IMG/VR virus record: IMGVR_UViG_3300044977_000044 | Location: 1 to 50,567 of that record | DNA length: 50,567 bases | Source of the DNA: a virus | Direction: 5' to 3' (one strand) | Shown: positions 23,359 through 47,065 of the stretch, piece after piece | Layout of the letters: the number at the start of each line of letters is the position of its first letter | Numbering within the stretch: position 1 is the stretch's first letter | Position numbers and translations under genes: made by a program | The notes under the pieces: generated by a model | What the model saw: the letters and a program-made list of their open reading frames with translations, nothing else | Told to the model about the DNA's origin: nothing | Databases searched by the model: none

Positions 23359-25143
23359 CTAATCGCAGTGCGTTCCTGCGCCGAGCGTAACCTTAACAGT
23401 TACGGTACAGGTATTTGTACTTACCGGAGGTGTGATTGGCAGCACCGCTAAGAACACGTCAGTGCGGCCATTGCCATAATCCGTCCAGGTACAAGTACCG
23501 TCAGACTGCGTTCCGCCAAGCGTCTGGTTCCATGTTCCCGGTTCGGTCGCTCCGCTGGTACAGTTCGACGCGTTATTGAATGAATAATAGCCAAGTGCTC
23601 CGCCGCTGCCGCCTGATCCAGTATTACCTACCGTAGGTGTAATCATAGCACCTGCGGTGTAAGCGTGGTTCGCTTGCCAGTCAGGCAACGTAACACTACA
23701 GCCTACGTGTACGCCATCGATGCAACCAAGCTGGCCGAGGAAGTCTGGCGACCATAGTAGGTACTTGCCATCTTGTGAAAGGCTTCCTGTTAAGTAAGCA
23801 AGCTCCAAGCTTGCATAAGAGTGCATCGCTCGGTAAGTAACCGCACTGCCCACTGGCGTCGTCGTCTGTATAAGAACTTCGTTGTCCCAAGGATACGTTG
23901 TGGTGCCGTTTGCAGGACCGTAAGGTAACACAACGAACGGAGCAGTGTCAGTTAAATTATCATCGGCCCATGTCAAGTGCGATTCGTTTTGCTGCTCCGG
24001 CGATGGGTAACCAGACGTTAGTGACGGCAGTGACACGTTCGTGTTTGGTGCAAGTAATGTATTGATGAACATGCCGTTCACGTTGCCATTCGGTGGGTTC
24101 ATACCATCACATTTGTTGACCCAAGAATTGTAACCTACAGCAGAATGCCCACAGCTATTGGAGGCGTTAGCGTAAGTAACGGTCGTTGTGCCAACGTTCC
24201 AGAAATAATTCTGAATACTCGTGATGCACGTTCCGGTACATACACCTTGCTGTACCTTTACCCACGACCCGCCCTTTGCACCGCGCACGTTATGTATCGT
24301 GAAAGTAACGGCGCTCCCTGCTGTTATGGTACCTTGATCGACGCCAGCCTTGAAAACGTGCGCAGTGCCGGTGTTCCAATAAGAACAAGTACCAGAACGG
24401 TTCCATGCAATGACATAAACGTTACCGCTACTCTCGGAGCCTACCGTGGTACTGGCATTGACAAAGAACGTTTGGTCATCACCACTGACTGTGACTTGCG
24501 AACCGTTGGAATTAGAATTACCAGAAAGGGCCGAGATACTACACGCGGTACTTAAATCGACGACGAGAGTTCCGGTCGGGTTACAGGTAACGATTCCGCC
24601 AGCGCACGTCGTGTCGTATGAAAATACGCCAATATCATACTGCGGACACCCAGTGATTCCAGTACCGCACGCATGTGCGTGGTACATTATGTACGGTTGA
24701 GTATAACTGAAGAAAGCTGAGCCTACGCCGGGGCTAACAAAACTGGTACTGCGTGAAAACGTCGGCGGTGAAGTCGTCGAATTGAATGCCCATAACTGCT
24801 GCCAGTTCCCTGTCTGGCAAAGCGTGATACGGTTATTGTTCATCTCTATTGTATGAACTTCCGAACTGGCATCACACGAAGTAACGTAACCGCCATGAGC
24901 TACGCTTTGACCTCCGGTGGCGTTATCGGTTACACCCACGAAAGTGGTATAAGGGAAATCAGAAGGAGTAAACTGGTAATTCGACCTTCCAGTAAGGGCT
25001 CCGCCACCAGCGCAGCCAGAGCTTGACGGGCAAGGAATAGAACCGGGATACGACTGCGCCGTAAAGTCAGTACGGGCAGTGTAACTTTGGCCAAAGGACG
25101 CCGCTATCAAGAACAAGAACAATGCAAAGCATAAAATCTTCAT
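23359..25143 (-). CDS. Exported Cys-rich beta protein (594 residues)
   Basis: The N-terminus MKILCFALFLFLIAASFGQ is a textbook Sec signal peptide (Lys, hydrophobic core, Ala-x-x-Gly end). The mature part is rich in Thr, Ser, Gly and Asn with many cysteines, often in close pairs (CPSSSGC, CGTGITGC, CAGGIVTC), which would form disulfides outside the cytoplasm. Several short strands and Gly/Asn turns suggest a beta-propeller or beta-sandwich. Nothing I can name is catalytic. It lies four bases after the 25147 gene, also exported, and ahead of the adaptor-like gene. Confidence 0.75.
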   Translation of the reverse strand: MKILCFALFLFLIAASFGQSYTARTDFTAQSYPGSIPCPSSSGCAGGGALTGRSNYQFTPSDFPYTTFVGVTDNATGGQSVAHGGYVTSCDASSEVHTIEMNNNRITLCQTGNWQQLWAFNSTTSPPTFSRSTSFVSPGVGSAFFSYTQPYIMYHAHACGTGITGCPQYDIGVFSYDTTCAGGIVTCNPTGTLVVDLSTACSISALSGNSNSNGSQVTVSGDDQTFFVNASTTVGSESSGNVYVIAWNRSGTCSYWNTGTAHVFKAGVDQGTITAGSAVTFTIHNVRGAKGGSWVKVQQGVCTGTCITSIQNYFWNVGTTTVTYANASNSCGHSAVGYNSWVNKCDGMNPPNGNVNGMFINTLLAPNTNVSLPSLTSGYPSPEQQNESHLTWADDNLTDTAPFVVLPYGPANGTTTYPWDNEVLIQTTTPVGSAVTYRAMHSYASLELAYLTGSLSQDGKYLLWSPDFLGQLGCIDGVHVGCSVTLPDWQANHAYTAGAMITPTVGNTGSGGSGGALGYYSFNNASNCTSGATEPGTWNQTLGGTQSDGTCTWTDYGNGRTDVFLAVLPITPPVSTNTCTVTVKVTLGAGTHCD

Positions 25144-25146
25144 AAG

Positions 25147-28100
25147 TTACCTTACCGTATCCACCGAAAGCATCATGTCCCATGTCGAGGTGTGGGTATT
25201 GGTTACACCGTTGATTTGCCACTGAATTGTCTGCGCGTTGCCGACAAAAATGGAATGTGTAATTTCGCCTACTGAGGCTGCGCCGAGAGTCGTACACAAC
25301 GCAGCAGCGTTGTAATTTTGCGTTGTACCGGAGTTGTCCACATAGAAAACGTTCAGGTTGGCCGTATCGCCAGACGCAGTAGCGCGGCATGAAATTACGG
25401 CCTTGATGAAATATTCTTGCAACACGCCGGTACTGTTCGTTGTCGCTGTTACAGCAGCAGTCGATGCCGTAGGTGCTTGCACCGTTTTGTAAATTTGCGA
25501 GCCGCTGGCAGGGGCAATCAAAACATCGACTGTGCCGGGAGTGCCGGTAGACCCAGTCGCAGCAGAAAGTGCGTAGCCCACGCGCCGTGGCGAGTCGAAC
25601 GGCGAGCAGTCACCTTGCCCGTTAATGGCCGAAGCATTATTGGAGATTTCATAATACTGACCTGCGGTGCAGTTGCTAACGGTTACCGCGCCTCGATAAA
25701 TTCCTGCAACCTGAATCTGCGACGGACTGCCGATGTTAAAGCCAGAATAGACAATGCCAATCGCGCCGTAATAATCGGCCGCTGCATTGGTTCCGGGAAC
25801 TACCATGCGTACAGCGGTTGTGTTCGCCGGCAGAGTATTGGAACAATCCACGTTATCAAATGCTCGACAGGAGCGAACAATATAACCATTCTTGCTCAGC
25901 AACGAGACGCCAGACTCCATCGTTTGTACTGTGCGGCACAAGCCAGGAATGCCACTGGCAGGATCAGAGCCGCTAATGCACCCACCGTCACCTCCAGTTG
26001 CGCCCGTGGAGTTTGAGTCACCGCCTCCGGTAAACAAGTTCGCCCCGTTATTGGCTGCTGAACCACCGCCAGACCACGAGCCGCCTTTGAGCAGTACAGA
26101 ATTAAGTGCCAAACCAGGAGCGATCTGGTCCACTGGAATTGAAGCCGCTCCTGGGATTGTCGCCCACACGTTACCATTCGTTCGTATTTCAGTACCTTGT
26201 CGGATCGAAATATTAATCGAAGACGAACCACCATCGAGCGTAGCTGCTGCGCCCGCACAGGCGATGCCATACAACGAGGTTGATCCTGGTGGAGTGATCG
26301 AAATGAACTGGTTCCCAGCGCCAGGAATGTAAGTTACCTTAAACGAATAGCCCGGTGGATAACCATTGGCAAGACCTGGCGGTGGTAGGCACAACGTTGA
26401 ACCGGCGGTGTTATTCGCCATGACCAGCTTTTTGTCATCAGAAGATTGACATACGCCATTATTTGGCGATGAGCAGGTCGGTACGCCAGTGATACCAGCA
26501 CCTACGGTTGTTGTAGGCTGCGGCGTGTACGCGACGCTCTGATTGCCATTGTAAGTCAGAACGTAACCGTCAACCATGTGCGTAACGCCGTTCGACCCTT
26601 CGCATATATCCATGCGCGAGCCGTCGTAGAAGTATCGCGCCGTTGCACCGAGGCAGTTCTGTGGCAGCGTTTCCTGATTCGGCACGAACGGCACTTGAAA
26701 TACCGTGTCTTGTGTGACGTTCTCACCGGTGTATTCGGCTATACCTACGCCGGAATTGAGTATAGTAGATTCAGCGCCCACGCATGTTCCGGCTCCGCCA
26801 CACGCACCTGTGTTGATGATACCAGACTCATTGGCCCCGGTCTGCGTCCACGTCAACGTAGTAATCCCGGTCGAATCGTTAGTGCTAACGCTAGTTACAG
26901 GGAACAAGCCATTAAACGAAGTTGTACCTCCGGTTACGTTGTAAACGTTAACTAAAGTACCGACAAGTATGCTCAATAAGCCGTTGTTACCGTTAGCGGT
27001 AGTAAATGTAGTAACAACGTTGGAAACGCGCTGTACAGACGAGATATTCGTTTGCCAACCTGTGAACCGCTTCGCGGCCACTATTCGGCTAGACTGCAAC
27101 GCGACTTGGTCGATTATAAGGTCAACGCCGTTGGTACCGTTAAAGATAGGCGTAATAATGCTAGTGTTCTGTGTGTTCGGGCCGATGTAGTAACCAACGC
27201 CAGTAGTCACTACTTGTACACCGTCAAAGACGTTACCGTTAGAGAACGTTGCGCTATCACCAGTAACGGCAACGCCGATCTGTCCGCTACCACGGTTATC
27301 AAGGCCGTTCTCCATGGCTTTACCAAAGAAGTGGTTGCCACCGGAGTTGTACAGGCCAATGCCGACAGAACAGTTCTGTGCTTGGCTGTTAGCCGTGGTC
27401 TCAGAAGCGTTGCTCTGTCCAACAACGTGGTTCGTGTAACCAAGGTCGATGTCAACTGAACCAGGGATTATGTCTGTGTTACCAGCGGCAGCACAAGTGC
27501 CCATGCCACCATAGATGTAATTAGACGCAGTCTTGCCAGTAGTTTGGATACGGAACTTCGTATTCGCGGTAATGATATTATACAGGTGAATGAATTGGGT
27601 AAAGTTCGATCCACCGTCTAGTTCGATACACGCTCCAACGTAGTAGGCGTTGCAAGCAATATTGACGAGAGTCCCGTTATTGGTAGCAAGAACATGAACT
27701 CCGCCAAGACCGTTACCTGTAAGGTCTTTGAACCCAACGTTTGCGATCGTAAACCCAGCCTGGTTCGGAGAAGTTCCAGTTCCTACAGATATTCCATAAA
27801 TCGCGCCGCTAGTTTCGATCGTAGACGCCGAGCCAGTAACGCCAAGTGCGCCAGTGCCTACAATCGCAACGCCCTGTAATAATGCAGTTGCAATGGTACT
27901 TGTGACCTTAAAATCACCGGCAGGTAACGGTATTATACAACCAACGGCAGTCCCTGTCTGTGGACAGGCGTTGACCGCTGCTTGCAGCGCAGCAGTGTCA
28001 TCAGACGAGCCGTCACCTTTAAGGTTACTGACGCCCGGTAAACAATTGTAAGGCGCCGATGTACCGAAGGCACACGTCCAGCCTTGTGCTGTCGCACGGA

Positions 28101-28620
28101 TGTAATTAGAACCGGCAAGTGGCGTACCTTCAACAGTGCCTTGCACTGCCGTAAGGCAACCAGTGGCACCTACGGCTCCGCCACACGGCCCAGTAGAGCT
28201 GCCGCCACTAACGCCAATGGCAAAGTTCCAGCAACTTGCCAGTACATTCACGGCCGAGGCACAATACTGGTAAGTGCCGACAGGCAGCCAGAAGCCGAAG
28301 TTACCGCCCAAGTCTGGTGTGTTTCGGCAAATATTCGTTGTAGTTAAAGTTACTGGCGAACCGACAGGACAAGCCGTTAGGCCAGTCGCGTCTGTGTAAC
28401 CGGCCGTGGCAGTACATATACCAGAGGTCAAACAGTTTACTGTTCCACCCGGCGCTACATACAACGTAATCGTAGCGTTATTAAGCGGCGATGAAACAGT
28501 ACGTGACGTTCCAGCAATCGCTACAGGAATCTGCAATGGCGACGGATCGTAGCGAGTAGCCTGGCTTTCGGCCAGCGTCGCTAACGCCAGTAACACAACG
28601 ATAGTGATGAAGTTTTTCAT
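25147..28620 (-). CDS. Exported beta-helix tailspike-like protein (1157 residues)
   Basis: MKNFITIVVLLALATLAES is a Sec signal peptide. Downstream, LKGDGSSDDTAALQAAVNACP (about 195-215) is the pectate-lyase-superfamily start of a right-handed beta-helix, the layout of phage tailspikes (polysaccharide depolymerases), followed by hundreds of residues of repeated Gly/Asn/Thr turns. The C-terminal 350 residues carry further beta repeats (PASGIPGLCR, YEISNNASAING) that could be a trimerisation or host-binding domain. A signal peptide on a tailspike-like protein is unusual: tailspikes are normally cytoplasmic. It may be displayed on or released from the host. Confidence 0.78.
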   Translation of the reverse strand: MKNFITIVVLLALATLAESQATRYDPSPLQIPVAIAGTSRTVSSPLNNATITLYVAPGGTVNCLTSGICTATAGYTDATGLTACPVGSPVTLTTTNICRNTPDLGGNFGFWLPVGTYQYCASAVNVLASCWNFAIGVSGGSSTGPCGGAVGATGCLTAVQGTVEGTPLAGSNYIRATAQGWTCAFGTSAPYNCLPGVSNLKGDGSSDDTAALQAAVNACPQTGTAVGCIIPLPAGDFKVTSTIATALLQGVAIVGTGALGVTGSASTIETSGAIYGISVGTGTSPNQAGFTIANVGFKDLTGNGLGGVHVLATNNGTLVNIACNAYYVGACIELDGGSNFTQFIHLYNIITANTKFRIQTTGKTASNYIYGGMGTCAAAGNTDIIPGSVDIDLGYTNHVVGQSNASETTANSQAQNCSVGIGLYNSGGNHFFGKAMENGLDNRGSGQIGVAVTGDSATFSNGNVFDGVQVVTTGVGYYIGPNTQNTSIITPIFNGTNGVDLIIDQVALQSSRIVAAKRFTGWQTNISSVQRVSNVVTTFTTANGNNGLLSILVGTLVNVYNVTGGTTSFNGLFPVTSVSTNDSTGITTLTWTQTGANESGIINTGACGGAGTCVGAESTILNSGVGIAEYTGENVTQDTVFQVPFVPNQETLPQNCLGATARYFYDGSRMDICEGSNGVTHMVDGYVLTYNGNQSVAYTPQPTTTVGAGITGVPTCSSPNNGVCQSSDDKKLVMANNTAGSTLCLPPPGLANGYPPGYSFKVTYIPGAGNQFISITPPGSTSLYGIACAGAAATLDGGSSSINISIRQGTEIRTNGNVWATIPGAASIPVDQIAPGLALNSVLLKGGSWSGGGSAANNGANLFTGGGDSNSTGATGGDGGCISGSDPASGIPGLCRTVQTMESGVSLLSKNGYIVRSCRAFDNVDCSNTLPANTTAVRMVVPGTNAAADYYGAIGIVYSGFNIGSPSQIQVAGIYRGAVTVSNCTAGQYYEISNNASAINGQGDCSPFDSPRRVGYALSAATGSTGTPGTVDVLIAPASGSQIYKTVQAPTASTAAVTATTNSTGVLQEYFIKAVISCRATASGDTANLNVFYVDNSGTTQNYNAAALCTTLGAASVGEITHSIFVGNAQTIQWQINGVTNTHTSTWDMMLSVDTVR

Positions 28621-28624
28621 AGCG

Positions 28625-28990
28625 TTAATGCAAAAATAACGTAAGAGCTATACCAGCAGCGCTAGCCCGTAGAATAATCTGAGTGTTCGGACTCGCGTTC
28701 GCCGTAGGCGATGTGTAAACATCACAAGCTGCGCTCTTGGTCTTTACATCGTAACCGACACAAGGCTTACCAAGATTATGAACCACAACGAAGTCCGTGT
28801 TGGCAACGCCCGGCGTAACCGGCGAAGCCCATACTCCAAGAATATTTACTGGACCAGAGGTCGGGTTGCCGAACTCGACGTTGCCATTGAAAGCTTTAGC
28901 TAACTGTTCATAAGTCTGCCGAACACGTTTGGCGAGCTTGTCAACGGGCTGGCCCAAACCGGCAAGGTTAATCGAGGATGGTATATTCAC
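28625..28990 (-). CDS. Small tail-cluster protein (GTG start)
   Basis: A 121-residue protein starting at GTG 28990, coupled by GTGA to the stop of the gp10-like gene, with GGAGG 6-7 bases upstream. The N-terminal helix has NLAGLGQPVDKLAKRVRQTYEQLAKAF; the rest is a beta-rich domain with GNVEFGNPTSGPVNILGVW and a final hydrophobic strand region. No known family is recognised. Its coupling to the tail protein argues that it is a tail or fibre attachment component. Confidence 0.6.
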   Translation of the reverse strand: MNIPSSINLAGLGQPVDKLAKRVRQTYEQLAKAFNGNVEFGNPTSGPVNILGVWASPVTPGVANTDFVVVHNLGKPCVGYDVKTKSAACDVYTSPTANASPNTQIILRASAAGIALTLFLH

Positions 28991-30603
28991 GCAGAACCTC
29001 CTCGAACTTCGCCACTTACATCGTACATGAGGGCAAACTCGACGATACCGACTCGAACATTCGGCGGACCGGAAAGTTCCCAAGTAATATACTTTCCGTG
29101 TATCGAAGTCTCAACGACGTGAGTTATCATGTTGCCGGAACCAGTACCTAACGTGAACGTCTGCACCTTCGGTGAGACGCCTTTCTCATTCGTGAACCGA
29201 AGGTTAAATGTCATGTTTGGTGAATAGTCTTCGAGCAACAAGCGAAACTTCTTCACGGAGTGACTATGCCGCGAATCGTCGAACGTAAGTTGCCCAGAAC
29301 GAATGTACCAACCATCTGTCGGGTAAATAGAACTCAACGTAGGTGCGGCGCTTTGCGCATTGAAGTTGAAATATGAAACAGAGTTGGCAATGCCATCGGA
29401 GACGGCCATTGTATCAAGCTGATTAGCATTGCTAAGCTGCGACGGAGTCCAACTCTGTTGTGCAATCGTTCCGATAAGGTCTTCGATACGCGGAATCTGT
29501 GCGAGCGGAAACGTTCCGCAGGGGCCAACAAGTTGGCCGGGAGCAAAGAACACTTGTGTCCAATTGCCTTCGTCAAAGTGATACACCCAAGCCTTGTTCA
29601 AGCTTGGTATAAACAACCAATACGACTCGAACTCAAAGCCGTTGGCTGAAGTCAAGATCATGCCAAAAATGTTCGTTTGTAGCGCTGTGAACAAGTCTTG
29701 AAAGATACGAATGCGAGCGCCTAACCTACGGTTACCGTCTATCGGCTTTGAGCCGATACCTTGAGACTCCGTCCCGTCAAAGACGTAAATGTCATCCTTG
29801 CCGACGTAACAAGCTACCAGCTCACCGAACGATGCTAATGAATACGGCAAAATGTTGCCCTTGGCGTAAGCCCCCATCGGGATGAACTGAAACGGCGACG
29901 TTCCTATTCCGGTAGGAACGATCTGCGTAATACCCCATTGCTGAAAAGCAAAGCCACTCTGAAAGAGTCGGCACAGTCCAGTTATAGGACCAAGGTTGTT
30001 GAACAAGTCCGTCTGGCCAGAATTATATGAAGTCCAATCAGTTCCGTCACCGGAACCAGTCCAATGAATTCGATTCGGGGCTGCGCCGGGTTCGAGCGTG
30101 TTACCAACGAGCAGATGAAACGCCAATTCGATTAGGTACTTTCCTGGAACGGCGGTTGCTGCTGCTGCTGTGAAATTCAACGAAAGCCCATCCCAAACCT
30201 GGACTACGTCTTTCTGCTGGCTAAAATACAGTTTGTACCCAACAACAGTCCACTGAAAGTACTGCGTAGCATTCCCGGTAAGCGCCCCCGTTATCTGAAC
30301 CCAATTACCAGCTTGCCAAGAATACATCTTTGTCGGTGTCCACACAACTGGCAAACGAACGCCATTGACATTAAAGAAGTCAGCAATGCCCATGATCGGC
30401 TCGCCTGACGGCGACGCTAACGCAGTGAAACCGGGAACAGTACGACAGTGAGACTTGCGGAAGATTAGGTTCTGTACTTCAGCAAAGCCTTTGTTCCCGA
30501 TCTGTCCCAAAGCAACTTCGCTCTGAATACCGCCGAAAGGTCCCTGATAAGAATACTCAGGCATCTCATCTTGACGCAACGTGTTTGGGGCAGCACCGGA
30601 CAT
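28987..30603 (-). CDS. Podovirus tail protein, P22 gp10-like (stabilisation/tail hub)
   Basis: A 538-residue protein. A repeated pattern of WT-, F- and Gly-containing strands (for example SWQAGNWVQITGAL, YFQWTVVGYKLYFSQQ, HWTGSGDGTDWTSY, FAFQQWGITQIVPTG) is typical of the beta-propeller tail-accessory proteins of P22-like podoviruses (gp10, the packaged-DNA stabilising tail component). The FRKSHCRTVPGF start region fits this class. It would join the portal-side tail to the fibre or needle. Upstream is a fibre-like gene. The assignment is by overall pattern. Confidence 0.65.
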   Translation of the reverse strand: MSGAAPNTLRQDEMPEYSYQGPFGGIQSEVALGQIGNKGFAEVQNLIFRKSHCRTVPGFTALASPSGEPIMGIADFFNVNGVRLPVVWTPTKMYSWQAGNWVQITGALTGNATQYFQWTVVGYKLYFSQQKDVVQVWDGLSLNFTAAAATAVPGKYLIELAFHLLVGNTLEPGAAPNRIHWTGSGDGTDWTSYNSGQTDLFNNLGPITGLCRLFQSGFAFQQWGITQIVPTGIGTSPFQFIPMGAYAKGNILPYSLASFGELVACYVGKDDIYVFDGTESQGIGSKPIDGNRRLGARIRIFQDLFTALQTNIFGMILTSANGFEFESYWLFIPSLNKAWVYHFDEGNWTQVFFAPGQLVGPCGTFPLAQIPRIEDLIGTIAQQSWTPSQLSNANQLDTMAVSDGIANSVSYFNFNAQSAAPTLSSIYPTDGWYIRSGQLTFDDSRHSHSVKKFRLLLEDYSPNMTFNLRFTNEKGVSPKVQTFTLGTGSGNMITHVVETSIHGKYITWELSGPPNVRVGIVEFALMYDVSGEVRGGSA

Positions 30604-31310: not shown

Positions 31311-32627
31311 CTAAACCTCCACTGAAAGCTCCACACCAGCTTCGCTAAGAGCTTCTAAGTCTTCCTTGAAGCGTTCAGCAAGATCAGTTCGGTACTGCTT
31401 ATTCTTTAACCGAAGCTGCTTAGCAGCTTCAAGAGGCTTTGCCAAAGCGCGAGCTGGATTAGTAGAACGGCCAGTAAACAGAGCAACAATGCCCCAAGCA
31501 CCGGCAGTGCACAAACCATTATCGTTCGATTTGACATTGTACAAATACGTATGTTTCGCCAACGTTTCATCGTCGATACCACGTAGTGGTACGTTCTCTT
31601 CTGCGTTGTGACGCTCGGTGGGCCAAGGCGGAATCGTTACACGTACCGCGCCAGCGAAGCTATCGCTTCGTAGATCAAGCTCACGTAACTGTCCACGTGC
31701 CGCATCAGCAAAGAATTTGCCAAGGCCGTCAGGCACCAGCTCCCACAACAGCGTTGGCGACGCATCGTAACCGAAACGGGGCGTAAACTCAAGGCCGTAG
31801 ATGCGACCGTCTCGCTCCGCGACGATTACATTCAGGTCAAGCATACCGTGATAACGCTCGCTTCGTGCCCATGGAATAAGTTGCTTTGCAGCTTCGCAGA
31901 CTCGACATCCTTGACAGAACCACGTTATGTTGCCAAGACATCCTCCGGAAGGACCGATGTCTTCGTTCATCAACTCTTTACGTTCAAGTGTATGGTTCGT
32001 GAGCGGTGGCACGAAGTCACCGTGTTGGAACCAAAGCTCTGTACTGAAAGCAACGCCTTTCTCGAAAGCTTGCAGCTCAAACTGAGGCTCGGCAATGTCC
32101 ACCTCGCTTGAAATGTTTTCGAGCATTTCGAGTAAATCTTCGGTGTCGAACGAAACGTGGGATGGTGACAAATCGCCTAACTGCTTAGATGGCTTATAGA
32201 CCCACCTAACGTCTGGATTGTTCCGGACAAATTCTGTAGCGACTTCAAAGGAGCTAAAACTCTCAGTGTGAGGGATATCAATGCCCGCATCTTCCATTAC
32301 CCCCGCTCCGTAGGAGCGGTCCCTTTCTAGCCTGTCGGCTAGTATGCTACCGCCTAAAACGGCAAAGCCCTGCGTAGCAACGAAGTCGGCCATAACTCCG
32401 TTACCACTTACATCAAATATGAATATATCGTTAGATGGATCGGCGTCAGTAAGCAGGTCCTCAAAGTCTCCGACTTTTTCAACGATATTATCGCCAACGC
32501 TCTTAGCATCACTACTGCGTATCCAAAGACGCATGGCGTAGCCTTCATTAGAAAGCCGCTTGGCAAAGCCAGCACCGTCTCCGGTCTCGGAAGCGATATT
32601 AAAGCGAAGCTGGTTCAATCTTCCCAA
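31311..32627 (-). CDS. PurD-like ATP-grasp enzyme
   Basis: A 438-residue protein. Features of the ATP-grasp fold include GGSILADRLERDRSYGAGVMEDAGIDIP (the PurD-type N-terminal boundary), YKPSKQLGD (ATP-binding Lys-containing loop), IYGLEFTPRFGYDASP (EFxxRFG, metal-binding) and a Cys-rich segment (CQGCRVCEA). In PurD this fold makes glycinamide ribonucleotide, joining phosphoribosylamine and glycine. Here it sits in the virion-gene block beside tail genes, so a protein- or DNA-modifying ligation is conceivable. TTG 32627 is forced by an in-frame stop just upstream; GAGG lies 8-9 bases before it. Confidence 0.72.
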   Translation of the reverse strand: MGRLNQLRFNIASETGDGAGFAKRLSNEGYAMRLWIRSSDAKSVGDNIVEKVGDFEDLLTDADPSNDIFIFDVSGNGVMADFVATQGFAVLGGSILADRLERDRSYGAGVMEDAGIDIPHTESFSSFEVATEFVRNNPDVRWVYKPSKQLGDLSPSHVSFDTEDLLEMLENISSEVDIAEPQFELQAFEKGVAFSTELWFQHGDFVPPLTNHTLERKELMNEDIGPSGGCLGNITWFCQGCRVCEAAKQLIPWARSERYHGMLDLNVIVAERDGRIYGLEFTPRFGYDASPTLLWELVPDGLGKFFADAARGQLRELDLRSDSFAGAVRVTIPPWPTERHNAEENVPLRGIDDETLAKHTYLYNVKSNDNGLCTAGAWGIVALFTGRSTNPARALAKPLEAAKQLRLKNKQYRTDLAERFKEDLEALSEAGVELSVEV

Positions 32628-33956: not shown

Positions 33957-33976
33957 ATTACCTTTGCACCGAAGCG

Positions 33977-34279
33977 TCAGCGGGCCGGCCACTCCGGTAT
34001 CGTAACCTTCGGTATCTTTGCTTGAACCTGAGCGGCCAAGATACAAACCACTCTCTTAATATCTGAAAGCTCCTCAGCGTGCCGACGCAAAGCGTCGTCC
34101 CGTTCATCGTTTTTAGACTCGGCTTTAAGCCCGCGCTCGGCTTCGCTCTTTTCAACTCGAAGCACAGTGCGACGATAACGCCACCAAAGAACAGTACCGA
34201 GGCCAAGAACCCCATACTGCAAAGCAACGAATGTAGCATGTAGCCATTCGGTACGAAACTGCCCCCAAAAGTCATTCAC
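33977..34279 (-). CDS. Membrane protein with coiled coil (lysis candidate)
   Basis: A 100-residue protein. GTG 34279 has GGAGG four bases before it. One membrane helix (about 15-34, ATFVALQYGVLGLGTVLWW) is followed by a basic patch and a long charged helix (about 38-80) likely to form a coiled coil, the layout of i-spanins and similar phage membrane proteins. It is placed just before the hydrolase and peptidase genes, so a lysis role is reasonable, though a holin or spanin call cannot be proven from sequence. Confidence 0.55.
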   Translation of the reverse strand: MNDFWGQFRTEWLHATFVALQYGVLGLGTVLWWRYRRTVLRVEKSEAERGLKAESKNDERDDALRRHAEELSDIKRVVCILAAQVQAKIPKVTIPEWPAR

Positions 34280-35008: not shown

Positions 35009-35269
35009 TTAGCTTTCGTCTGGTTGAATGGTGGCGTCGTCTGTTGTTTCCTTTAGCAATTGCATTACGTCCATTTCATGGTCATTCTGTTCCAATACTT
35101 CGCGGATCAACTCATCACGCTCGTAGGTCAGTAGATTGTCTACGCACTTCTCGGTGCATAGAATCAAACCATTCTGGCGCGTGAGCTGCGGTGCAGGATA
35201 CTCCATCCCGCACCGATCGCAACGGTGCCAAGGACCTTTCCGAAATCCGCTATGTGATTGGTTAGGCAT
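35009..35269 (-). CDS. Small zinc-finger-like protein in capsid cluster
   Basis: An 86-residue protein with CDRCG (16-20) and LCTEKC (about 36-42), a CxxC...CxxxC zinc site, followed by an acidic helix. Its start overlaps the stop of the exported 35269 gene by a base. Small zinc proteins in virion clusters are common and often act in assembly; the function here is unknown. Confidence 0.65.
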   Translation of the reverse strand: MPNQSHSGFRKGPWHRCDRCGMEYPAPQLTRQNGLILCTEKCVDNLLTYERDELIREVLEQNDHEMDVMQLLKETTDDATIQPDES

Positions 35270-35868
35270 TACGGTACCGTAACAGCCGTCCAGGTGTTCG
35301 CCGTACCACAGACATAAAGACTAGTCGAGGCAGTCGTCGCGCCTAGGTTTATGTCCAATGAACCGATCGGACAGTTACTTGTCGGCACGGCCATACTGAC
35401 CTGTATCGGCAGTGTTGGCCCTGCCGATCCTTGAGCTGTACCGTAGTAATTAAACTGCACCGCGTCGTTGCCGGTGGTCGTCAACGCCGTTACATTAAAC
35501 TTAACGTAGTTGGCGGCTGTGCCATAGTACGTGTACGTTCCTGACGAAGTACAGGTCTGTGCAATAGCACCTGTCATCGCAACGAACGTAGCGCCTGCGG
35601 CACTCGATTCCAACTGAACAGTACAAGAGCTGACAGAGCCAGTCCCTGTCACCGTCCAACTAATCGTATGTGCGATGATATTCGCGCCTTCAAACATTGC
35701 GCCCTGACCACCACACACGCCGGCAGCACCGCCGGTGGCCACGCCAGTTGCCGCTGTACAAGCGACGGTGGAGGCCACCGGTCCATAAGACTGGGAAAAC
35801 TGAGTCTGCGCAAGTACAGGCAAGGCACTTGCGAAGGCAAGAAACAGCAACAAGCCAAACCTTTTCAT
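35269..35868 (-). CDS. Exported beta protein with shared domain (199 residues)
   Basis: ATG 35868 is chosen since GGAGA lies 10 bases before and the protein then begins MKRFGLLLFLAFASALPVLAQ, a clear Sec signal peptide; the 35919 start would put 17 residues in front. The mature part holds a beta domain (about 60-145) with SW..G, SCTVQL, GAIAQTC and ANYVKFNV, which matches the N-terminal domain of the 44543-47065 protein (SW.G, TCQVSI, GILAAQTC, ANYVRVNV). Several close Cys pairs suggest disulfides outside the cytoplasm. Confidence 0.7.
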   Translation of the reverse strand: MKRFGLLLFLAFASALPVLAQTQFSQSYGPVASTVACTAATGVATGGAAGVCGGQGAMFEGANIIAHTISWTVTGTGSVSSCTVQLESSAAGATFVAMTGAIAQTCTSSGTYTYYGTAANYVKFNVTALTTTGNDAVQFNYYGTAQGSAGPTLPIQVSMAVPTSNCPIGSLDINLGATTASTSLYVCGTANTWTAVTVP

Positions 35869-35930
35869 CGAAGATTCTCCTTGAAACGAACGTTTACTTT
35901 GTATACGAACGTACCGCACGTTGTGTACGG

Positions 35931-36884
35931 TTACGGACCGTTACTGCCCCATGTTCCCATCCAGCTTAGTGCGCCGACAGAGAAGCGCATGTACGAAATC
36001 TGCTTGATGCTCCGAGTATCGAAGTCATCAGAGAAGTCTTCGTCAAGCTCTTTGCGGTTGAGGAACTTGAGCCAGTGTGAGTCTTGGTCACAGACCGCGA
36101 ACCACTGCGATTGGCTCGTTAGGTAGTGGCAAATGAAATAGTTCAGGTCTTCGCCAAGAACAGCGTTGATTTCATTGTCACTGGTGTACGGCTTGTGCGG
36201 GCTGCCAAGAATCTCGCGCGCGATCCATTTCAGCTCAGGCGGGATAATCAAGTGCCGAGGCTTGAGAGTCATCGGTAGACCCTGCGAGTCTACGAGACGT
36301 TCAAACTGGTTCACCATGAGCTGAATGCCCGTAAACGAAATGTCAATGTCTGTCAGCGGACGGTTTGGATACGTCCCACTTGAGGCAATGATATTCGTTA
36401 GGCCAGGGCCGATGTTCGTGGCGCCAGTGCCGCCGAGCAACGGATGTGCGGAGTTGAAGAGGCTTACGCCGTCGCTTGTAACGAACGTCGAGAAGCCAGT
36501 GTTGAAAATATTCCACGCAACTTGTTCTTTGGTGAAATGCGCAGAACGCGCCAGTGCCTTCGGCACCTGCATGATGAGATTGTACTGGTCGTCATCATAT
36601 AGCTCCCACGAAGAGCGTACGCCAAGACCATACGACAAGTGCTCAAAACGGAACGTCCCGCCTTGAATCGCGTCTTGGTACGTAATCGACTCTCCTTCAG
36701 GCTTTTCTGGCATCGGGCCGAGACCGCTGAACTCGACTTCGTCAACGAAGGCGTGAGTATCGCTCTCGACGTGGAAGATATGGCTGAACTCTTCTTCGCG
36801 CTGTTTCATGTCAATCCAATGCACGAAGATATCGTGTAAACCTTCAGCCATAAGCTGACTGAACTCACCACGTACCATTGTCAT
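35931..36884 (-). CDS. Major capsid protein (HK97-fold, Mu gpT-like)
   Basis: A 317-residue protein. The arrangement of an N-terminal helix, then DTHAFVDEVEFSGLGPMPEKPEG and an E-loop-type stretch (FRFEHLSYGLGVRSSWELYDDD), a helical P-domain (LARSAHFTKEQVAWNIFNTGF, LLGGTGATN), and a C-terminal beta section agree with Mu gpT-type / HK97-like capsid proteins. GELSQL and WIARE helices are typical. The length is normal for the class. The neighbours are scaffold- and portal-like genes in the usual order. AGGAACAAG lies before ATG 36884. Confidence 0.8.
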   Translation of the reverse strand: MTMVRGEFSQLMAEGLHDIFVHWIDMKQREEEFSHIFHVESDTHAFVDEVEFSGLGPMPEKPEGESITYQDAIQGGTFRFEHLSYGLGVRSSWELYDDDQYNLIMQVPKALARSAHFTKEQVAWNIFNTGFSTFVTSDGVSLFNSAHPLLGGTGATNIGPGLTNIIASSGTYPNRPLTDIDISFTGIQLMVNQFERLVDSQGLPMTLKPRHLIIPPELKWIAREILGSPHKPYTSDNEINAVLGEDLNYFICHYLTSQSQWFAVCDQDSHWLKFLNRKELDEDFSDDFDTRSIKQISYMRFSVGALSWMGTWGSNGP

Positions 36885-38861: not shown

Positions 38862-39146
38862 TTATTTAAGGACAAGTCCCGTTCTGCTGCCTCCGGTGAC
38901 AGGGCTTACCTTTTTCTTCCGAACATTCTCTTGATACTGTCGTATTTCCTCCGGTAAGCCAAGGATACGGGACAGCACCTTGAACTCGCCCTGCGCCCGC
39001 GCGGCAGCAAGACCTTCCGCCGTTGCGAGCGTTTTCAGCGCCGAGTCTTGCCACTCCGTTAGGAATTGTATAACGGCTTTGCCGTCGGCAGATTCAAGCC
39101 ACTTCTTTGAGCTGGTCGTAGACGTTAGTACAACGTCGATATTCAC
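38862..39146 (-). CDS. Small virion-cluster protein, unknown
   Basis: A 94-residue protein whose ATG 39146 overlaps the portal stop by ATGA. Two helices (about 14-45 and 50-85) with hydrophobic faces; the tail is basic. No named motif. Small proteins of this size often sit between portal and scaffold genes. Confidence 0.6.
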   Translation of the reverse strand: MNIDVVLTSTTSSKKWLESADGKAVIQFLTEWQDSALKTLATAEGLAAARAQGEFKVLSRILGLPEEIRQYQENVRKKKVSPVTGGSRTGLVLK

Positions 39147-41071
39147 TGAATACCTCCAGGCCCAGGTCCAGCACCGCTCGGTAACGCAGCGGTAGCCGGT
39201 AAGCCCGGCAATGCCCCGTTCGCACCAGCAGGGATCGGAGAAGCGGGCGGCGGAGCGTTATTAGCGCCGGCACCGCCCGGTCTCGCCTGCGGCTGTTGGG
39301 GAGGAGCTGCTTCCGCATCGGGTACAAGACGGTCTACCTCGTCCCGCCCGAAGTGCCGCAGAACACTTTTCATCAACAAGTTGCTTGCAAGTACGGCTTC
39401 GCCAATATATTTCTTAACCGGGTCCGGTAACATGGCATTCTGCGCCTGCATAAGCATCTGTGTTACCATACCGTAATGCTTCTGCATCATCTGGCTTAGC
39501 ATCACGTCAGCTTGTTTCTCAACCTCACGGTTAACCGACGCAGTAGCGGCGTACACCGGCAAAGCTATCGCTTTTTGTTTAACAAGATCCATCGCCTCAC
39601 GCAAGCGGTCCGACATCTTACCGAATAGACCTACACGGTCACCAAGACCAAAATGCGCATATTGATTCAAGAGGATACGCCCGAGTTTGGTATGAGCATA
39701 CCGTATATCTGTAACATTGAGATCGGTACGAGTATTGCCCTCTTGCATAAGGGACAAAGTCCCCATAGCAGTATATACACCTCGTTTGGTGTTAGTTCCA
39801 GCTCCGTAACCTTGCATAGGCGGAGACACGCCGGACAATTTTTCTGCGAGTTCAATGGAAAGATTCTCCTCTTCAATCGACATCGCACTCACATCGCCTT
39901 GCGAGAGCGGTTCGATTTCGTCTTTCCTTGCCGGAAGCATCGCGCTCGGAAACACGCGATAGCCTTTGTGAAGCTGACTGTCGGGATCAACTCTCCACAC
40001 TTTCGTGTTAACGACAGTCATGTTATCACGACGCTGGTTGTGCATCTGGCTTATCTCTTCCTGAAAGGGCGCCAGCCGTTCGCAGAAGCCATAACCAAAA
40101 AACATATCGTCCCGGTAAAAGAGACGAGCCGTAACAAAGATTTGGTCGGGGTAATAGAAATAAAACGCACGTAGAATGGAATTGGTACGTTCGTGGTACC
40201 ACGCAATTACACGAACGTAATGCTCGCCAAAGCGGTACTTAAAATGACATTCGTAAATGTGGTACTCAGCGTAGCCAAAGCTCGCTAGTGAAACGGCTCC
40301 GGTGTCCTGCTCTTCGGAGCTTTGAACTACATCCGGTGATGTACGATCCGGCGACTTCAAGACTTCGTCTACGACCTTCTTGTCATAAATATCATAGAAC
40401 GCCCTCTCTTGAAGCTGGTGTTTCTGCAACCGGATACGGTGATAAACGAAGTCTGCATCTTCGAGAGTCTTTGCCGAAGGCGGCACGCCAAAGTCACTAA
40501 AGCGGATCTTTTCCGGTCGTGGGCCTTTGTAAAGAACCTCATCCTCAAACTCCGTCTTCCCGGAACCATCACCTGCGGTATAAGCTGACGCTTCAATAAT
40601 CTTGACTTGCGGGCACTTTACAGTGCTCGTACCATAACGAATCGTCTCCCCATACCATTCATGGTACACACGAAACAAGTCGAGTTCCGAAGGTTCGATG
40701 GAGACGTAAGTCATAAACTCTTCAACCGCTTCGCGCCGCTCATCCATTGCCTTAGCATCGACGTGCTCACCGTAAATTTTTGCGACCCAAGGCGGTTGTG
40801 TTTTCAACACTGCGGCCATTACTCTGGCGAGTAGCGTGTCGGAGTGAATGGCGATTATCGGGATAACGTTGTTGGACGCGTTATAGAACGGAAATTCTCG
40901 AATAGATTCCGCAGGAATCGCTTCATAAGCTTTGCGCCAATTCACGACACGATCTTCATGTATTACTTGACAGCCCTGGCGTATCGCCATGATACGACGA
41001 CGCATAAAGGCTTTCAGGCGCACCTCTACACCGGAGGTGGGCTTAAGCGGGATTGGTGTCGTATTAGGCAT
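39143..41071 (-). CDS. Portal protein
   Basis: A 642-residue protein. The N-terminal region VRLKAFMRRRIMAIRQGCQVIHEDRVVNWRKAYEAIP and long mixed alpha/beta body (IIAIHSDTLLARVMAAVLKTQPPW, YHEWYGETIRYGTSTVKCPQVKI, FGYGFCERLAPFQEEISQMHNQRRDN) match the layout of podovirus portals, which form the dodecameric DNA gate. A Gly/Pro/Ala-rich C-terminal tail (from about 595) is unlike the rest. The neighbours are the terminase upstream and scaffold downstream. The size is in the usual 500-750 range. Confidence 0.8.
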   Translation of the reverse strand: MPNTTPIPLKPTSGVEVRLKAFMRRRIMAIRQGCQVIHEDRVVNWRKAYEAIPAESIREFPFYNASNNVIPIIAIHSDTLLARVMAAVLKTQPPWVAKIYGEHVDAKAMDERREAVEEFMTYVSIEPSELDLFRVYHEWYGETIRYGTSTVKCPQVKIIEASAYTAGDGSGKTEFEDEVLYKGPRPEKIRFSDFGVPPSAKTLEDADFVYHRIRLQKHQLQERAFYDIYDKKVVDEVLKSPDRTSPDVVQSSEEQDTGAVSLASFGYAEYHIYECHFKYRFGEHYVRVIAWYHERTNSILRAFYFYYPDQIFVTARLFYRDDMFFGYGFCERLAPFQEEISQMHNQRRDNMTVVNTKVWRVDPDSQLHKGYRVFPSAMLPARKDEIEPLSQGDVSAMSIEEENLSIELAEKLSGVSPPMQGYGAGTNTKRGVYTAMGTLSLMQEGNTRTDLNVTDIRYAHTKLGRILLNQYAHFGLGDRVGLFGKMSDRLREAMDLVKQKAIALPVYAATASVNREVEKQADVMLSQMMQKHYGMVTQMLMQAQNAMLPDPVKKYIGEAVLASNLLMKSVLRHFGRDEVDRLVPDAEAAPPQQPQARPGGAGANNAPPPASPIPAGANGALPGLPATAALPSGAGPGPGGIQ

Positions 41072-42483: not shown

Positions 42484-44202
42484 TTAATTCACTCCTACGG
42501 AGTAAGGTTGGTTAACTTTCCGACTTTGTTGCCAATTAGCACGCTTCATTGACATCACCGATTCCATTGACATCGGTGAGTACATGATCTGTGGAGCATA
42601 CGCCATCGCGTCAAGAAGGTCACAAAAACGCCCCTTCGGAAATGTCTGATACTCACCGACAAAGTCGGTATGCTGACGTTGGCACCAGAAGCGTTCACTT
42701 TCAAAGATCGGCGCAAGAACGTTTCGGATACGCCACTCTTTCTTACGAGAAATGCTACCGTCAGGAGCTTCAACTTCGCCTTTTAGCTCCACGATGCGAA
42801 TAGGCCAAGTCTCGTAACGGTTCCGTTGTTCGATATGGTAAATCGCATACTTCTGCGCAGCAACGCTCTCGAAGCCGACCCGACGAATCTTCCACTTCCG
42901 TGCCATCTTATATATCGCGGCAAAGAACGTATCGTAATTGCTTTGCAACGCGGCGTTGTCGAGCAGGTAATAATGTTGACGGTCCTGCGGATCGGCGCCC
43001 TTCATAGCCACAAAGTCTTTCGACAGGAGCGATCCCAGAACGACGAGGGCGTGACGGCAACGTCCGGCTGAATCGTTACCAGAATGGCGAGGATCAACAG
43101 TCATCGCAAGCGACATTTCGCTTATGCGCCGGTCCTTATAAATAAGTCCATTCTTTGGTTCATGCACAATCAACGGATATGCGTTAGCATCCACACCAAG
43201 CGTGTAGTAACTGAGCCATTCTGGCTTGAAATCGGCATCTTCTGGCGAGCAGGGATTGTTCAGGAACTGACAACTAAAGTGATAATTACCGAGACGCTCC
43301 TTCAAGCGCATCAGTTTTTCAAACGAGAATTCTTCCGGAAAGATCGGCGTATCCGCAAGGTGCAAGGGACAGCAACCGCCAAGCGCGGAGTGGTTCACGA
43401 ACACGAACCAAGGTTCGTGCTCTTGTATATACGTGTTCAGGTCGTGGTATGCCCAACGATTGCCAACAACGAGTTCGTCGTTCTCGAATAGGGCATCCTC
43501 GTTCTCGAAGACACCTACAAGGAGTTTATGGTAGTCAATGGTCTTATCCATGATCGAGGGCGATTCGAGCGCCTTGCGACCGACGAGGTCATCTTCGATA
43601 AGGAGGCCATTGTAGTGGCGAGATTGCACTGCGGAACCGACGCCGAGGAAATCAAATGTTCCCTCGCCGTGTGAGCCAGTTGCATTAGGGCGTTTAATGT
43701 GGAGCGAGAAATCGGTCCAGGTGCATGATGTATCTGGAAGAATGTCCGAAAACGCTGCGCGGAAGATTGCATTCGACTCAAAGTGACCTCGTATTTTCCG
43801 ACCAAGCTTTGCTGCGTTTGTGATGTTTTCGCTTACCAGCAAGTTACGTGCATCAGTATCGTGAACTTCGTGCATCCAACGAATGAATTCGTCAGAATAG
43901 CCTTCGGCTTTGAACGCGTCCTCATCCGCAGGAGTAACCGGCAACGCCCGCCACATCGGCAAGCCTTCACCACAAATCGTAGATTTGAAATGGTCGCGCG
44001 GCATTTCATACACATCTTTGATGTGTTTACGTTCCAACGATCGACAGATCGGATGGTGCAGTGTGTCCGTAAGCCGACGGCGTTTTAATGCAACCTTAAT
44101 AAAATAATACAACGAGCCAAGGCTGTTAAGCCGCAAGGCGCGCACTGCCGCCTGCGGCGACAGCCCGGTGATTGGAAGCGGCTTGTATTGTTCTACGGAC
44201 AT
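42484..44202 (-). CDS. terL: Terminase large subunit
   Basis: A 572-residue protein. The ATPase has MPRDHFKST (Walker A variant with HFKS, as in T7-type terminases), LLIEDD as Walker B, and later SRHYNGLL between them. The nuclease half shows MTVDPRHS (RNase H-fold Asp), GFESVAAQKYA and FCDLLDAMAYA (acidic residues). It is the packaging motor and headful or unit-length cutter. The neighbours are holin-like and portal genes, and the TerS-like protein is at 48516. The length is standard. CAATGTCCG-type start at 44202 with a modest ribosome site. Confidence 0.9.
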   Translation of the reverse strand: MSVEQYKPLPITGLSPQAAVRALRLNSLGSLYYFIKVALKRRRLTDTLHHPICRSLERKHIKDVYEMPRDHFKSTICGEGLPMWRALPVTPADEDAFKAEGYSDEFIRWMHEVHDTDARNLLVSENITNAAKLGRKIRGHFESNAIFRAAFSDILPDTSCTWTDFSLHIKRPNATGSHGEGTFDFLGVGSAVQSRHYNGLLIEDDLVGRKALESPSIMDKTIDYHKLLVGVFENEDALFENDELVVGNRWAYHDLNTYIQEHEPWFVFVNHSALGGCCPLHLADTPIFPEEFSFEKLMRLKERLGNYHFSCQFLNNPCSPEDADFKPEWLSYYTLGVDANAYPLIVHEPKNGLIYKDRRISEMSLAMTVDPRHSGNDSAGRCRHALVVLGSLLSKDFVAMKGADPQDRQHYYLLDNAALQSNYDTFFAAIYKMARKWKIRRVGFESVAAQKYAIYHIEQRNRYETWPIRIVELKGEVEAPDGSISRKKEWRIRNVLAPIFESERFWCQRQHTDFVGEYQTFPKGRFCDLLDAMAYAPQIMYSPMSMESVMSMKRANWQQSRKVNQPYSVGVN

Positions 44203-44204
44203 TG

Positions 44205-44489
44205 TTAGTCCAAATACACGTACACCGCACCAGCATCAAGCGTGTCAAGGATCAGTCCATTAACTACACCAATTTTGGCGCTACGCACCTCTGACAAGTC
44301 AGCGGCGCCTGTAAACGTTTCGATTATGTTACCGTTCTGATCTTTCAAGATCGCACGGTTACCTTGTGCGGCGTAGCCGCTGAACTGGAAGTGGTTCACT
44401 TTTATGTTCCAGTTGGCAATGACAGCGTTAGGCTGGCCGAAGGCGATTGGAGTGTCAAGGCGCCATTGACGAGGACCGATGTTGTTCAT
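44205..44489 (-). CDS. Small beta protein ahead of terminase
   Basis: A 94-residue protein with strands such as WNIKVNHFQFSGYAAQGNRAILKDQNGNIIET and a hydrophobic C-terminal end (LILDTLDAGAVYVYLD), suggesting a small Ig- or jelly-roll-like fold. It begins with AACGGAGT upstream of ATG 44489. Its neighbours are the exported protein at 44543 and the terminase. Possibly a virion-associated beta domain. Not recognised. Confidence 0.6.
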   Translation of the reverse strand: MNNIGPRQWRLDTPIAFGQPNAVIANWNIKVNHFQFSGYAAQGNRAILKDQNGNIIETFTGAADLSEVRSAKIGVVNGLILDTLDAGAVYVYLD

Positions 44490-44542: not shown

Positions 44543-47065
44543 CTAGTACGCCATCGAAGCGGAAAGATTCGATAAAGTTGCGCACGATCCTGCCGTAACT
44601 TCGCCTACGATAAAATCTCCCGAAGCAATTACCGGGTTACTTACAGTTCCTGCTGTGATCGTATTCGCAGCCGTAACCGTCACCGTGCCAATGGTCGTTG
44701 GCGAAGCACATGTCGTTGACGCTCCACAATCTAAAAACGTGATTGTCGGATTCGTGGTGCAAGTCGCTAGAGCGGCAGCAGAGCCAATAATATTTTGGAC
44801 AGTTAACGATTCTGCCGCTTTCATGGACGACGAAAAATCGGCCCCCACGATACCCGTAATGGAGCTAGCTGTTATTTGAAACACCGCTCCTTTGATAGCG
44901 ACCGCTAGATTCGCAACAGGCGTGGTGCTGGTGATGGATAAAGGAGCGGTTCCGGTTGCGAGAGTAGAGGTGATCTGACCCGTGGAACTTAAATCTGTGA
45001 CCTTAGCATGATTGATTGAAAAATTGTTTCCGTTGGTTTGGTAATCGAAATTGGCTACTCCCCCATAAGTTGTGCTCGTGACGGGATCGACCATCGGCAT
45101 GAACTTCCAAGTAGCGGCAGACGTACCTGTTGCGTCGGAGAGGAGAACTTTGTAGCGGAATGGAACTTGATGAATGGCCGCCGCGCCATCGTTGTAATTG
45201 GCGGCCAATGCAAAGCCGGGAGAAGAATACCACTGACTCGTGCCTTGACTATAAACTTGAGTTGATCCCAAATATAAAGCATTAACGGGTCCCGTCAGTG
45301 CATCGTTATCTCCTGCTTGACTGTTTTTCTGTATGGTGAAAGCAGTTATTCCGCCATAGGTAGCGCTCCCAGAAAAATTTCCACCCGTGAAAGGGGTTAT
45401 AGTCCCAATCGTAATAGCTCGTTGAAATTGGGGGAGAACCGGAAGGGCGCTTATTGTTGCGTTGGGCATTTCATCCAAAATTGAAACCCACTGACCAGAA
45501 CTCTGCGGCTTGACTGCTTTGGTGACGCTGGAATTTGATTTCATAATATTTCCCAGCGAAAGAACATCGGATAGTCCACCCGAAAAATCCCAGTAGTACT
45601 TGGTTAGATCGGGAGAATCCATCTCGTAACTATTGTTGAAAAGGACCGTGGCATAAGAACTCGATCCTGAAGCAGTAACCCCTTGTTTTGACGATTCATC
45701 GTGAACGAATGCATAGGTGCCTCCGAACGATGCACCTACGGTGAGTGCCACTATATGTTGTTCGGTAAGCCCACCGAGCACATGCCAACTACCGCCTGCT
45801 AAAGAAAACCCAGTGCCGCAACCTAGTAACTCACTTTCATAAAAAGCGATGCTACGGGCATTCGCTGAGGTTCCGAGATTGAAGCAAGTTGAACCAGAAT
45901 TGTAGGTTGTATTTGCTCCAATTCCCATGCGCCAAAAGGTGTGAGCTTCATTGTTGGCTTGAGTGTCGCCGGAAGCCGCTACGATATTAAATCCTATCGC
46001 ACCGCTCCCGTTTAGCCCGCTAATCTGCCAATCGTGATATAGATTGTGTGAACTGATCTGACCAGATGTTCCCGTCAGTTGAGTGACGGTGACGCCTCCG
46101 GCGCCACTAATTGCGTTCAAATTCAAATTCATTCGTCCAACGATACTATCTCGCTGACGATCAAGATTGAAGGCATAAGCCGCGCCGCCCGTCCATAAAA
46201 AATTCGCGCCTGAACCTAACTGACCCGCTCCACCAAGCCCTTCCATCCCATAAGCGCCGAATGAGTTTGGTGCGACACTAGTTCCGAATTGATAGTTGCC
46301 AGAGGGATTTGAACGAATTAGTCCTGCATTCTTCGAACCCACCGCATTCCATGCGGCCGTGATATTTGTGGACTGATCACCTGTAGTCGTCACGTTTTGA
46401 TCGAGCCAATCAATCGCTGGCTTGGACTGGTACGCGCAGGGAAGGCCGACGCCGTTGGAGACGCAAGCTGAGCCAGCGGCGACTCCAGTAGGCAAAGGAT
46501 TTGTAACAGCTACTGTGGGTAAGGGCGGAGAGCCGGAAACCGTAATGCCAGTACCTGCTGTTACTCCTGTAACGGTTCCTGTACCTGGAATAGGGTTATA
46601 AGCCCAGCCTTTGTATACAATCGTTACAGGATTAACACTCCACGTACTAACGTTGACACGAACGTAGTTTGCGTTACCGGACGTAATAGCGGATGAACCT
46701 GCGGTTGTGCAAGTCTGCGCAGCAAGAATACCACCCACGGTCCACGTTACGTTGTCAGGCGAAGAGTCGATCGAAACTTGGCAAGTTGACGGAGTCCCGG
46801 ACCAGCTTAGCTGATGGTACAAGATTACGGTATTTTCAACGATTGGTGCGGCGGTGGTTACGGAAGTGAACGTAGTCTGTTGGTAGGCATTGTAAGCCTG
46901 AGGCTGTGCCTGCGGCACCAGTAACAGAAATAGGAATACAGCTGCAAGTCCAGAACGCAATGCGTCCGCGGCATAGCCGTAAAACAAAGAATGGCAACTT
47001 CGCTCGACTCGCTTCGCTCGTCTCACTCGCGCAGAACTCTCTTCCTCTGTCAAGCCAACTGTCAT
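44543..47065 (-). CDS. Exported fibre-like protein with duplicated domain (840 residues)
   Basis: ATG 47065 overlaps the endonuclease VII-like stop (ATGA) and has GGAG 7-8 bases upstream. A long charged n-region of about 40 residues leads into AAVFLFLLLVPQAQPQA, a signal peptide or membrane anchor. Residues about 70-165 match the shared domain of the 35269 protein (SWSG, TCQVSI, GILAAQTC, ANYVRVNV). The rest is Gly/Thr/Ser/Asn-rich with many short strands. This resembles a surface fibre. The body ends in a Thr/Cys-rich domain (CTTNPTITFLDCGASTTC). Confidence 0.7.
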   Translation of the reverse strand: MTVGLTEEESSARVRRAKRVERSCHSLFYGYAADALRSGLAAVFLFLLLVPQAQPQAYNAYQQTTFTSVTTAAPIVENTVILYHQLSWSGTPSTCQVSIDSSPDNVTWTVGGILAAQTCTTAGSSAITSGNANYVRVNVSTWSVNPVTIVYKGWAYNPIPGTGTVTGVTAGTGITVSGSPPLPTVAVTNPLPTGVAAGSACVSNGVGLPCAYQSKPAIDWLDQNVTTTGDQSTNITAAWNAVGSKNAGLIRSNPSGNYQFGTSVAPNSFGAYGMEGLGGAGQLGSGANFLWTGGAAYAFNLDRQRDSIVGRMNLNLNAISGAGGVTVTQLTGTSGQISSHNLYHDWQISGLNGSGAIGFNIVAASGDTQANNEAHTFWRMGIGANTTYNSGSTCFNLGTSANARSIAFYESELLGCGTGFSLAGGSWHVLGGLTEQHIVALTVGASFGGTYAFVHDESSKQGVTASGSSSYATVLFNNSYEMDSPDLTKYYWDFSGGLSDVLSLGNIMKSNSSVTKAVKPQSSGQWVSILDEMPNATISALPVLPQFQRAITIGTITPFTGGNFSGSATYGGITAFTIQKNSQAGDNDALTGPVNALYLGSTQVYSQGTSQWYSSPGFALAANYNDGAAAIHQVPFRYKVLLSDATGTSAATWKFMPMVDPVTSTTYGGVANFDYQTNGNNFSINHAKVTDLSSTGQITSTLATGTAPLSITSTTPVANLAVAIKGAVFQITASSITGIVGADFSSSMKAAESLTVQNIIGSAAALATCTTNPTITFLDCGASTTCASPTTIGTVTVTAANTITAGTVSNPVIASGDFIVGEVTAGSCATLSNLSASMAY

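Follow-up and report, generated by a model that had tools for sequence, protein, structure and literature searches.

Assembly of tailed phages is taught as a cytoplasmic process, and neither disulfides nor host export are expected in their fibres. To our knowledge, no tailed phage exports its fibres via Sec, and in the open-access literature, consulted mostly by title and abstract, we found nothing published on tail fibres that carry Sec signal peptides. Several described systems share features with the locus considered here, a 50.6 kb IMG/VR virus record (IMGVR_UViG_3300044977_000044; hereafter the window), and with its relatives. Modular tail fibres and tailspikes have, like the signal-peptide (SP) proteins of this group, a conserved N-terminal domain, exchangeable tips and beta-helix or depolymerase matches, but the window group differs in its signal peptides, its high and even number of cysteines and its apparent export. 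XepA of Bacillus subtilis PBSX is a late phage protein described as crossing the membrane by export and as missing from mature particles (PMC6834076). Together with YomS, it resembles in fold one of the domains described below (type D), although type D proteins carry a Sec signal peptide before the domain and often larger C-terminal modules after it. Porphyromonas phages encode proteins of unknown function with Q-rule signal peptides, read by their authors as acting on host outer membranes; as in the window, the signal peptidase I (SPase I) site exposes Gln, but these are Bacteroidota phages and the proteins are unreported as fibres (PMC10367356). The N-termini of the tail and neck fibres of cyanophage A-1(L) have the transthyretin (TTR)-like fold of our type A domain, a fold so common that the likeness is no proof of homology. 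Tunturi_1 and Tunturi_2, cultured podoviruses of Tunturiibacter in the Acidobacteriota (PMC11924767), have Cys-rich tail-block proteins with signal peptides and AxA/Q sites (the slash marks the cut) like those of the window, but without detectable window homologues.

The minus strand of the window carries a late block of podovirus type, with a large terminase, an SU10-type portal, an HK97-like major capsid protein (MCP) and a phrog_3287 protein recognised through Pfam and PHROG:

28987..30603, minus strand, virion structural protein (phrog_3287), a landmark
35931..36884, minus strand, MCP, the query used for finding relatives
39143..41071, minus strand, SU10-type portal
42484..44202, minus strand, large terminase
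44205..44489, minus strand, Cys-free 94-aa neighbour of 44543-47065

In the relatives L012, L078 and L081, homologues of the last of these are immediate neighbours of type D SP genes and form with them a linked pair whose genome position varies. Within the block, 31311-32627 may encode an ATP-grasp-like enzyme (its GARS_C match is weak and below cut-off) and has homologues in 29 ORFs of relatives. By eye, 42199-42483, which immediately follows the terminase and encodes 94 aa with hydrophobic segments, looks holin-like, and 33105-34046, a 313-aa ORF, looks glycoside hydrolase-like; neither Pfam nor PHROG gave a match for the latter, and none of the relatives has a homologue of it.

A first-pass annotation had attributed signal peptides or anchors, and cysteine pairs, to four ORFs without naming their strand. 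All four exist, and all are encoded on the minus strand:

23359..25143, minus strand, SP protein of 594 aa, 20 Cys in the mature part
25090..25143, minus strand, its Sec signal peptide, MKILCFALFLFLIAASFG followed by Q, predicted cleavage before Q19
25147..28620, minus strand, SP fibre-like protein of 1157 aa, 32 Cys, all in the mature part and even in number
28564..28620, minus strand, its Sec signal peptide, MKNFITIVVLLALATLAES followed by Q, predicted cleavage before Q20
25150..25539, minus strand, its C-terminal tip module, common to SP fibres with other N-terminal types
35269..35868, minus strand, SP protein of 199 aa, 6 Cys, jelly-roll (type D) domain, next gene after the MCP
35809..35868, minus strand, its Sec signal peptide, MKRFGLLLFLAFASALPVLA followed by Q, predicted cleavage before Q21
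35434..35808, minus strand, its type D domain, two Cys invariant in the alignment
44543..47065, minus strand, SP or anchor protein of 840 aa, 11 Cys, N-terminal type D domain
46895..46948, minus strand, its hydrophobic segment, preceded by a 39-residue n-region and with no clean AxA site
46571..46894, minus strand, its type D domain (AlphaFold2 pLDDT 78; best PDB match XepA)

Three of the four carry textbook Sec/SPase I signals, with a positive n-region, a hydrophobic h-region, small residues at -3 and -1 and no lipobox Cys at +1. The attribution is less secure for 44543-47065: its start has a good Shine-Dalgarno (AAAGGAGATACCATG) and residues 40-56 form a strongly hydrophobic segment, yet the cleavage site is poor; the protein is doubtful as a Sec/SPase I substrate, and the segment might be an anchor or an atypical signal. 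Our signal-peptide scorer, a simple, homemade one built on a weight matrix, flagged solely 23359-25143, 25147-28620 and 35269-35919 among 55 window ORFs, the signal peptide of the last being taken from the internal ATG at 35868. The four proteins contain 21, 32, 6 and 11 Cys, in the order of the list, and most neighbouring structural proteins of the window have 0-4. The beta-helix label given to 25147-28620 found no confirmation, as none of the four proteins matches a named family in Pfam or PHROG and no beta-helix match was returned for the window proteins, though families of the pectate-lyase/beta-helix and tail-spike kinds do turn up among the matches of related SP proteins. Direct homologues were found neither for 25147-28620 in IMG/VR or INPHARED nor for 44543-47065 in INPHARED, and no SP protein homologous to 23359-25143 was found.

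A terminase query retrieved nine contigs, and profiling IMG/VR with an MCP alignment yielded 80 loci, most with 55-77% MCP identity to the window; the type A and type D alignments were too divergent for collection-wide scans. Downstream of the MCP of these relatives, 38 of 239 unique plus-strand ORFs of at least 150 aa (16%) pass the SP criteria, compared with 1.7% of shuffled proteins. Where a locus extends 9.5 kb or more beyond the MCP on the downstream side, it has in most cases one to three SP proteins (in the per-locus table, L027, shown without an SP protein, was read as L008/L090, and the incomplete entry L043 duplicates L042). Two related soil phages, L065 and L066, have none within 11 kb downstream of the MCP, and we count this against the explanation preferred below. 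That the signals arose by chance or artefact, through wrong starts, misassembly or host genes in the contigs, deserves mention given metagenomic contigs and such a scorer. It is highly improbable in view of the pass rate over shuffles, the recurrence of SP proteins in the same late block of dozens of relatives from many samples, and the occurrence of the pattern in two cultured phages. Several relatives also encode SP proteins of ~160-240 aa, mostly Cys-poor, between terminase and portal (including L004:3132-3716, L005:12039-12611, L035:4422-5015 and L056:4899-5429), which by eye have the look of small outer-membrane barrels.

The predicted cleavage site is strongly conserved. The motif [small]-x-[AGS]/Q is found in 34 of the 38 signal peptides, which were called without a Q criterion, against 13% in random stretches (p=4e-26); an earlier test with automatic cleavage choice placed Gln at +1 in 22/38, over a background of 3.5%. 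Across 41 aligned SP proteins with a mean identity of 10%, the +1 Gln is the sole column conserved to at least 90%. The AxA/Q pattern is that of the Bacteroidetes Q-rule, described in a paper that does not mention Acidobacteriota (PMC5837995), and a Bacteroidota host was considered on this basis. Shine-Dalgarno motifs precede 60% of phage starts versus 13% of random positions. Such usage argues against a typical Bacteroidota host, which we judge the less likely one. AxA/Q signals also occur in Acidobacteriota DNA, at 6/24 in Granulicella under strict automatic choice and at 11/26 in a wider Acidobacteriota set versus 0/9 from other bacteria. Taken together, the Shine-Dalgarno usage and these signals lead us to favour Acidobacteriota as candidate hosts of the window phage group. 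Gln at +1 appears to be common in Acidobacteriota, for example on Granulicella tundricola pACIX901 (L094, L096-L100). A pattern scan of GTDB contigs for the MCP gave no match, and 396 Acidobacteriota genomes gave one distant MCP (L170), apparently of a different phage.

The mature parts of the SP proteins are rich in cysteine, with a median of 2.19% versus 0.47% in 455 non-SP late-block ORFs (p=2e-21). The number is even in 37 of 41 complete SP proteins, whose members are not all independent, and in 17 of the 19 long variable ones with at least 10 Cys; among non-SP proteins with at least two Cys it is even in 182/296. In the tip at 25150..25539, one Cys pair is invariant across five aligned SP proteins. 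High and even Cys content fits full disulfide pairing in an oxidising compartment. Fibre-like proteins without signal peptides in L075 and L077, at ~+1.9 kb from the MCP, contain 0.3% Cys, and the SP proteins of L069-L076 lie near this place, at +2.9 to +4 kb. An SP-less tip homologue in L075 that lacks both Cys was dropped as proof, the hhalign probability being 42% over 34 columns.

The SP genes are the hypervariable, modular genes of the late block. Their first 130 mature residues recur between genomes (mean 6.8 hits), and beyond residue 200 the mean falls to 0.45. Tips are swapped between N-terminal types, that of 25147-28620 being also present in L072, L073, L076 and L035, and that of L042 in L069. 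Some SP relatives match PHROGs for tail spike, tail fibre and EPS depolymerase as well as pectate-lyase folds, and we recognised no other hypervariable receptor-binding candidate in the window. The SP proteins are thus likely to be receptor-binding or depolymerase fibres. A model of the type A N-terminal domain shows a transthyretin-like fold (pLDDT 83); the tail and neck fibre N-termini of cyanophage A-1(L) match it with Z of 8.0 and 7.8, values that many TTR-like domains equal. For the type D domain, which 44543-47065 and 35269-35868 have in common, the structure predicted from 44543-47065 is a jelly roll. It comes closest to PBSX XepA (Z 11.6, with an rmsd of 2.4 A across 95 residues), ahead of YomS (Z 9.6) and a phage cement protein (Z 8.8).

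In part of the group the signal is internal. Only 4 bp separate the end of the short protein 28625-29083 from the SP gene 25147-28620. The short protein contains the following domain:

28628..29014, minus strand, short beta domain, in 12 relatives part of one reading frame with an internal signal peptide and fibre

In these fused ORFs (L014, L048, L046, L034, L042, L013, L028, L044, L052, L049, L062 and L084) the signal lies behind the 115-aa short tail domain with its AxA/Q site kept, and the hydrophobic segment begins in what is the last strand of the short domain, where an Arg or Lys is usually present (VLRLF, VIRLF, VKLF). L063 differs, its signal being encoded within the short gene in another reading frame. 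Internal translation starts do not offer a general account, as several fusions have no ATG, GTG or TTG at a suitable place; since suitable start codons are unconserved at the fusion, an internal signal would be the simplest reading. This internal position, which we also count against our preferred explanation, and the poor site of 44543-47065 would suit N-terminal segments that are uncleaved hydrophobic anchors, giving membrane-bound fibres or a hydrophobic tail plug. The strong conservation of AxA/Q, internal segments included, and the enrichment and parity of Cys make anchors improbable.

The explanation that we prefer is that the SP proteins are modular receptor-binding or depolymerase fibres made as Sec pre-proteins. 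SPase I would cut at AxA/Q and leave an N-terminal Gln, probably cyclised; the chains would fold in the periplasm with complete disulfide pairing; and at lysis, virions released from the cytoplasm would meet the finished fibres and dock them through the conserved N-terminal domain. That the SP proteins are Sec-exported, disulfide-bonded receptor-binding or depolymerase fibres is very probable from their sequences. Export itself we hold with high confidence; docking onto virions, if export is granted, appears somewhat more probable than not; and the whole sequence of events stands at little better than an even chance. The several N-terminal domain types per genome weigh against docking, as several docking sites would be needed.

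The first-pass annotation had offered exported decoys or enzymes, or fibres that mature outside the cell, as readings of these signals. Export is strongly supported; a pure decoy copy has become less likely. The SP proteins might never enter the virion and might instead be late secreted depolymerases or adhesins, acting on the host envelope or exopolysaccharide to ease lysis or release, or blocking receptors. This secreted role keeps substantial weight, though clearly less than an even chance, because XepA, the best type D match, is described as exported and absent from mature particles (PMC6834076), a point that also counts against the preferred explanation. Sec export, moreover, takes the chains out of the compartment in which virions are assembled, and the Q-rule proteins of Porphyromonas phages, with their proposed action on host outer membranes, offer a parallel (PMC10367356). 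Against it, a conserved N-terminus and exchangeable tips are what virion fibres combine, SP-less fibres hold a similar place in L075 and L077, and the window has no other recognised receptor-binding candidate of this variability. A receptor-blocking decoy copy of a virion fibre would need an SP-less paralogue with the same tip, and none was found in the window, in 50 kb of the 63 kb Tunturi_2 genome or in five relatives, which are partial contigs. Because of this, and because the SP genes are themselves hypervariable and modular, the decoy copy is the less likely reading and lacks support. The domain architecture, the tail-spike and tail-fibre matches and the position-matched SP-less fibres favour fibres over decoys. 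Of the single readings, incorporation into virions is the strongest, by a small margin over a role in secretion only.

The Tunturi phages extend the pattern to cultured representatives. Tunturi_1 and Tunturi_2 each have four tail-block proteins with signal peptides, three of them with AxA/Q, and with 10-34 Cys, annotated as tail fiber, tail spike/pectin lyase, virion structural or hypothetical. They are ORF12, of 1190 aa with 20 Cys; ORF13, labelled tail fiber in Tunturi_2; ORF14, with the site A/T, labelled tail spike in Tunturi_1 and pectin lyase in Tunturi_2; and ORF17, labelled virion structural protein, which in Tunturi_2 has 34 Cys in 1280 aa. Signal peptides are unmentioned in the text describing these phages (PMC11924767). 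In 50 kb of each, no tail protein of Tunturi_3 or Tunturi_4 has a signal peptide; we take the former to be N4-like, and the latter is a siphovirus. As the 50 kb of Tunturi_2 compared shares no detectable protein homologue with the window, the Tunturi phages seem to owe the SP-fibre trait to a separate origin or acquisition. Export signals on variable, Cys-rich, fibre-like proteins would thus occur in a large uncultured soil phage group and, apparently independently, in two cultured acidobacterial phages. We tentatively propose, with rather less than even confidence, that fibre maturation outside the cytoplasm, with Sec export, N-terminal Gln, periplasmic disulfides and docking at or after lysis, evolved in tailed phages of Acidobacteriota, across two or more unrelated podovirus lineages, and that one sub-group fused its fibres so that an internal signal peptide follows a cytoplasmic tail domain in a polyprotein-like layout.

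If the fibres are exported and then join virions, these phages would have a late assembly step outside the cytoplasm; if they are absent from virions, a widespread group of soil phages would secrete a hypervariable arsenal onto its hosts. Expressing such fibres would need an oxidising compartment. Either way, the matter is testable in a cultured phage-host pair, Tunturi_1 or Tunturi_2 on Tunturiibacter.
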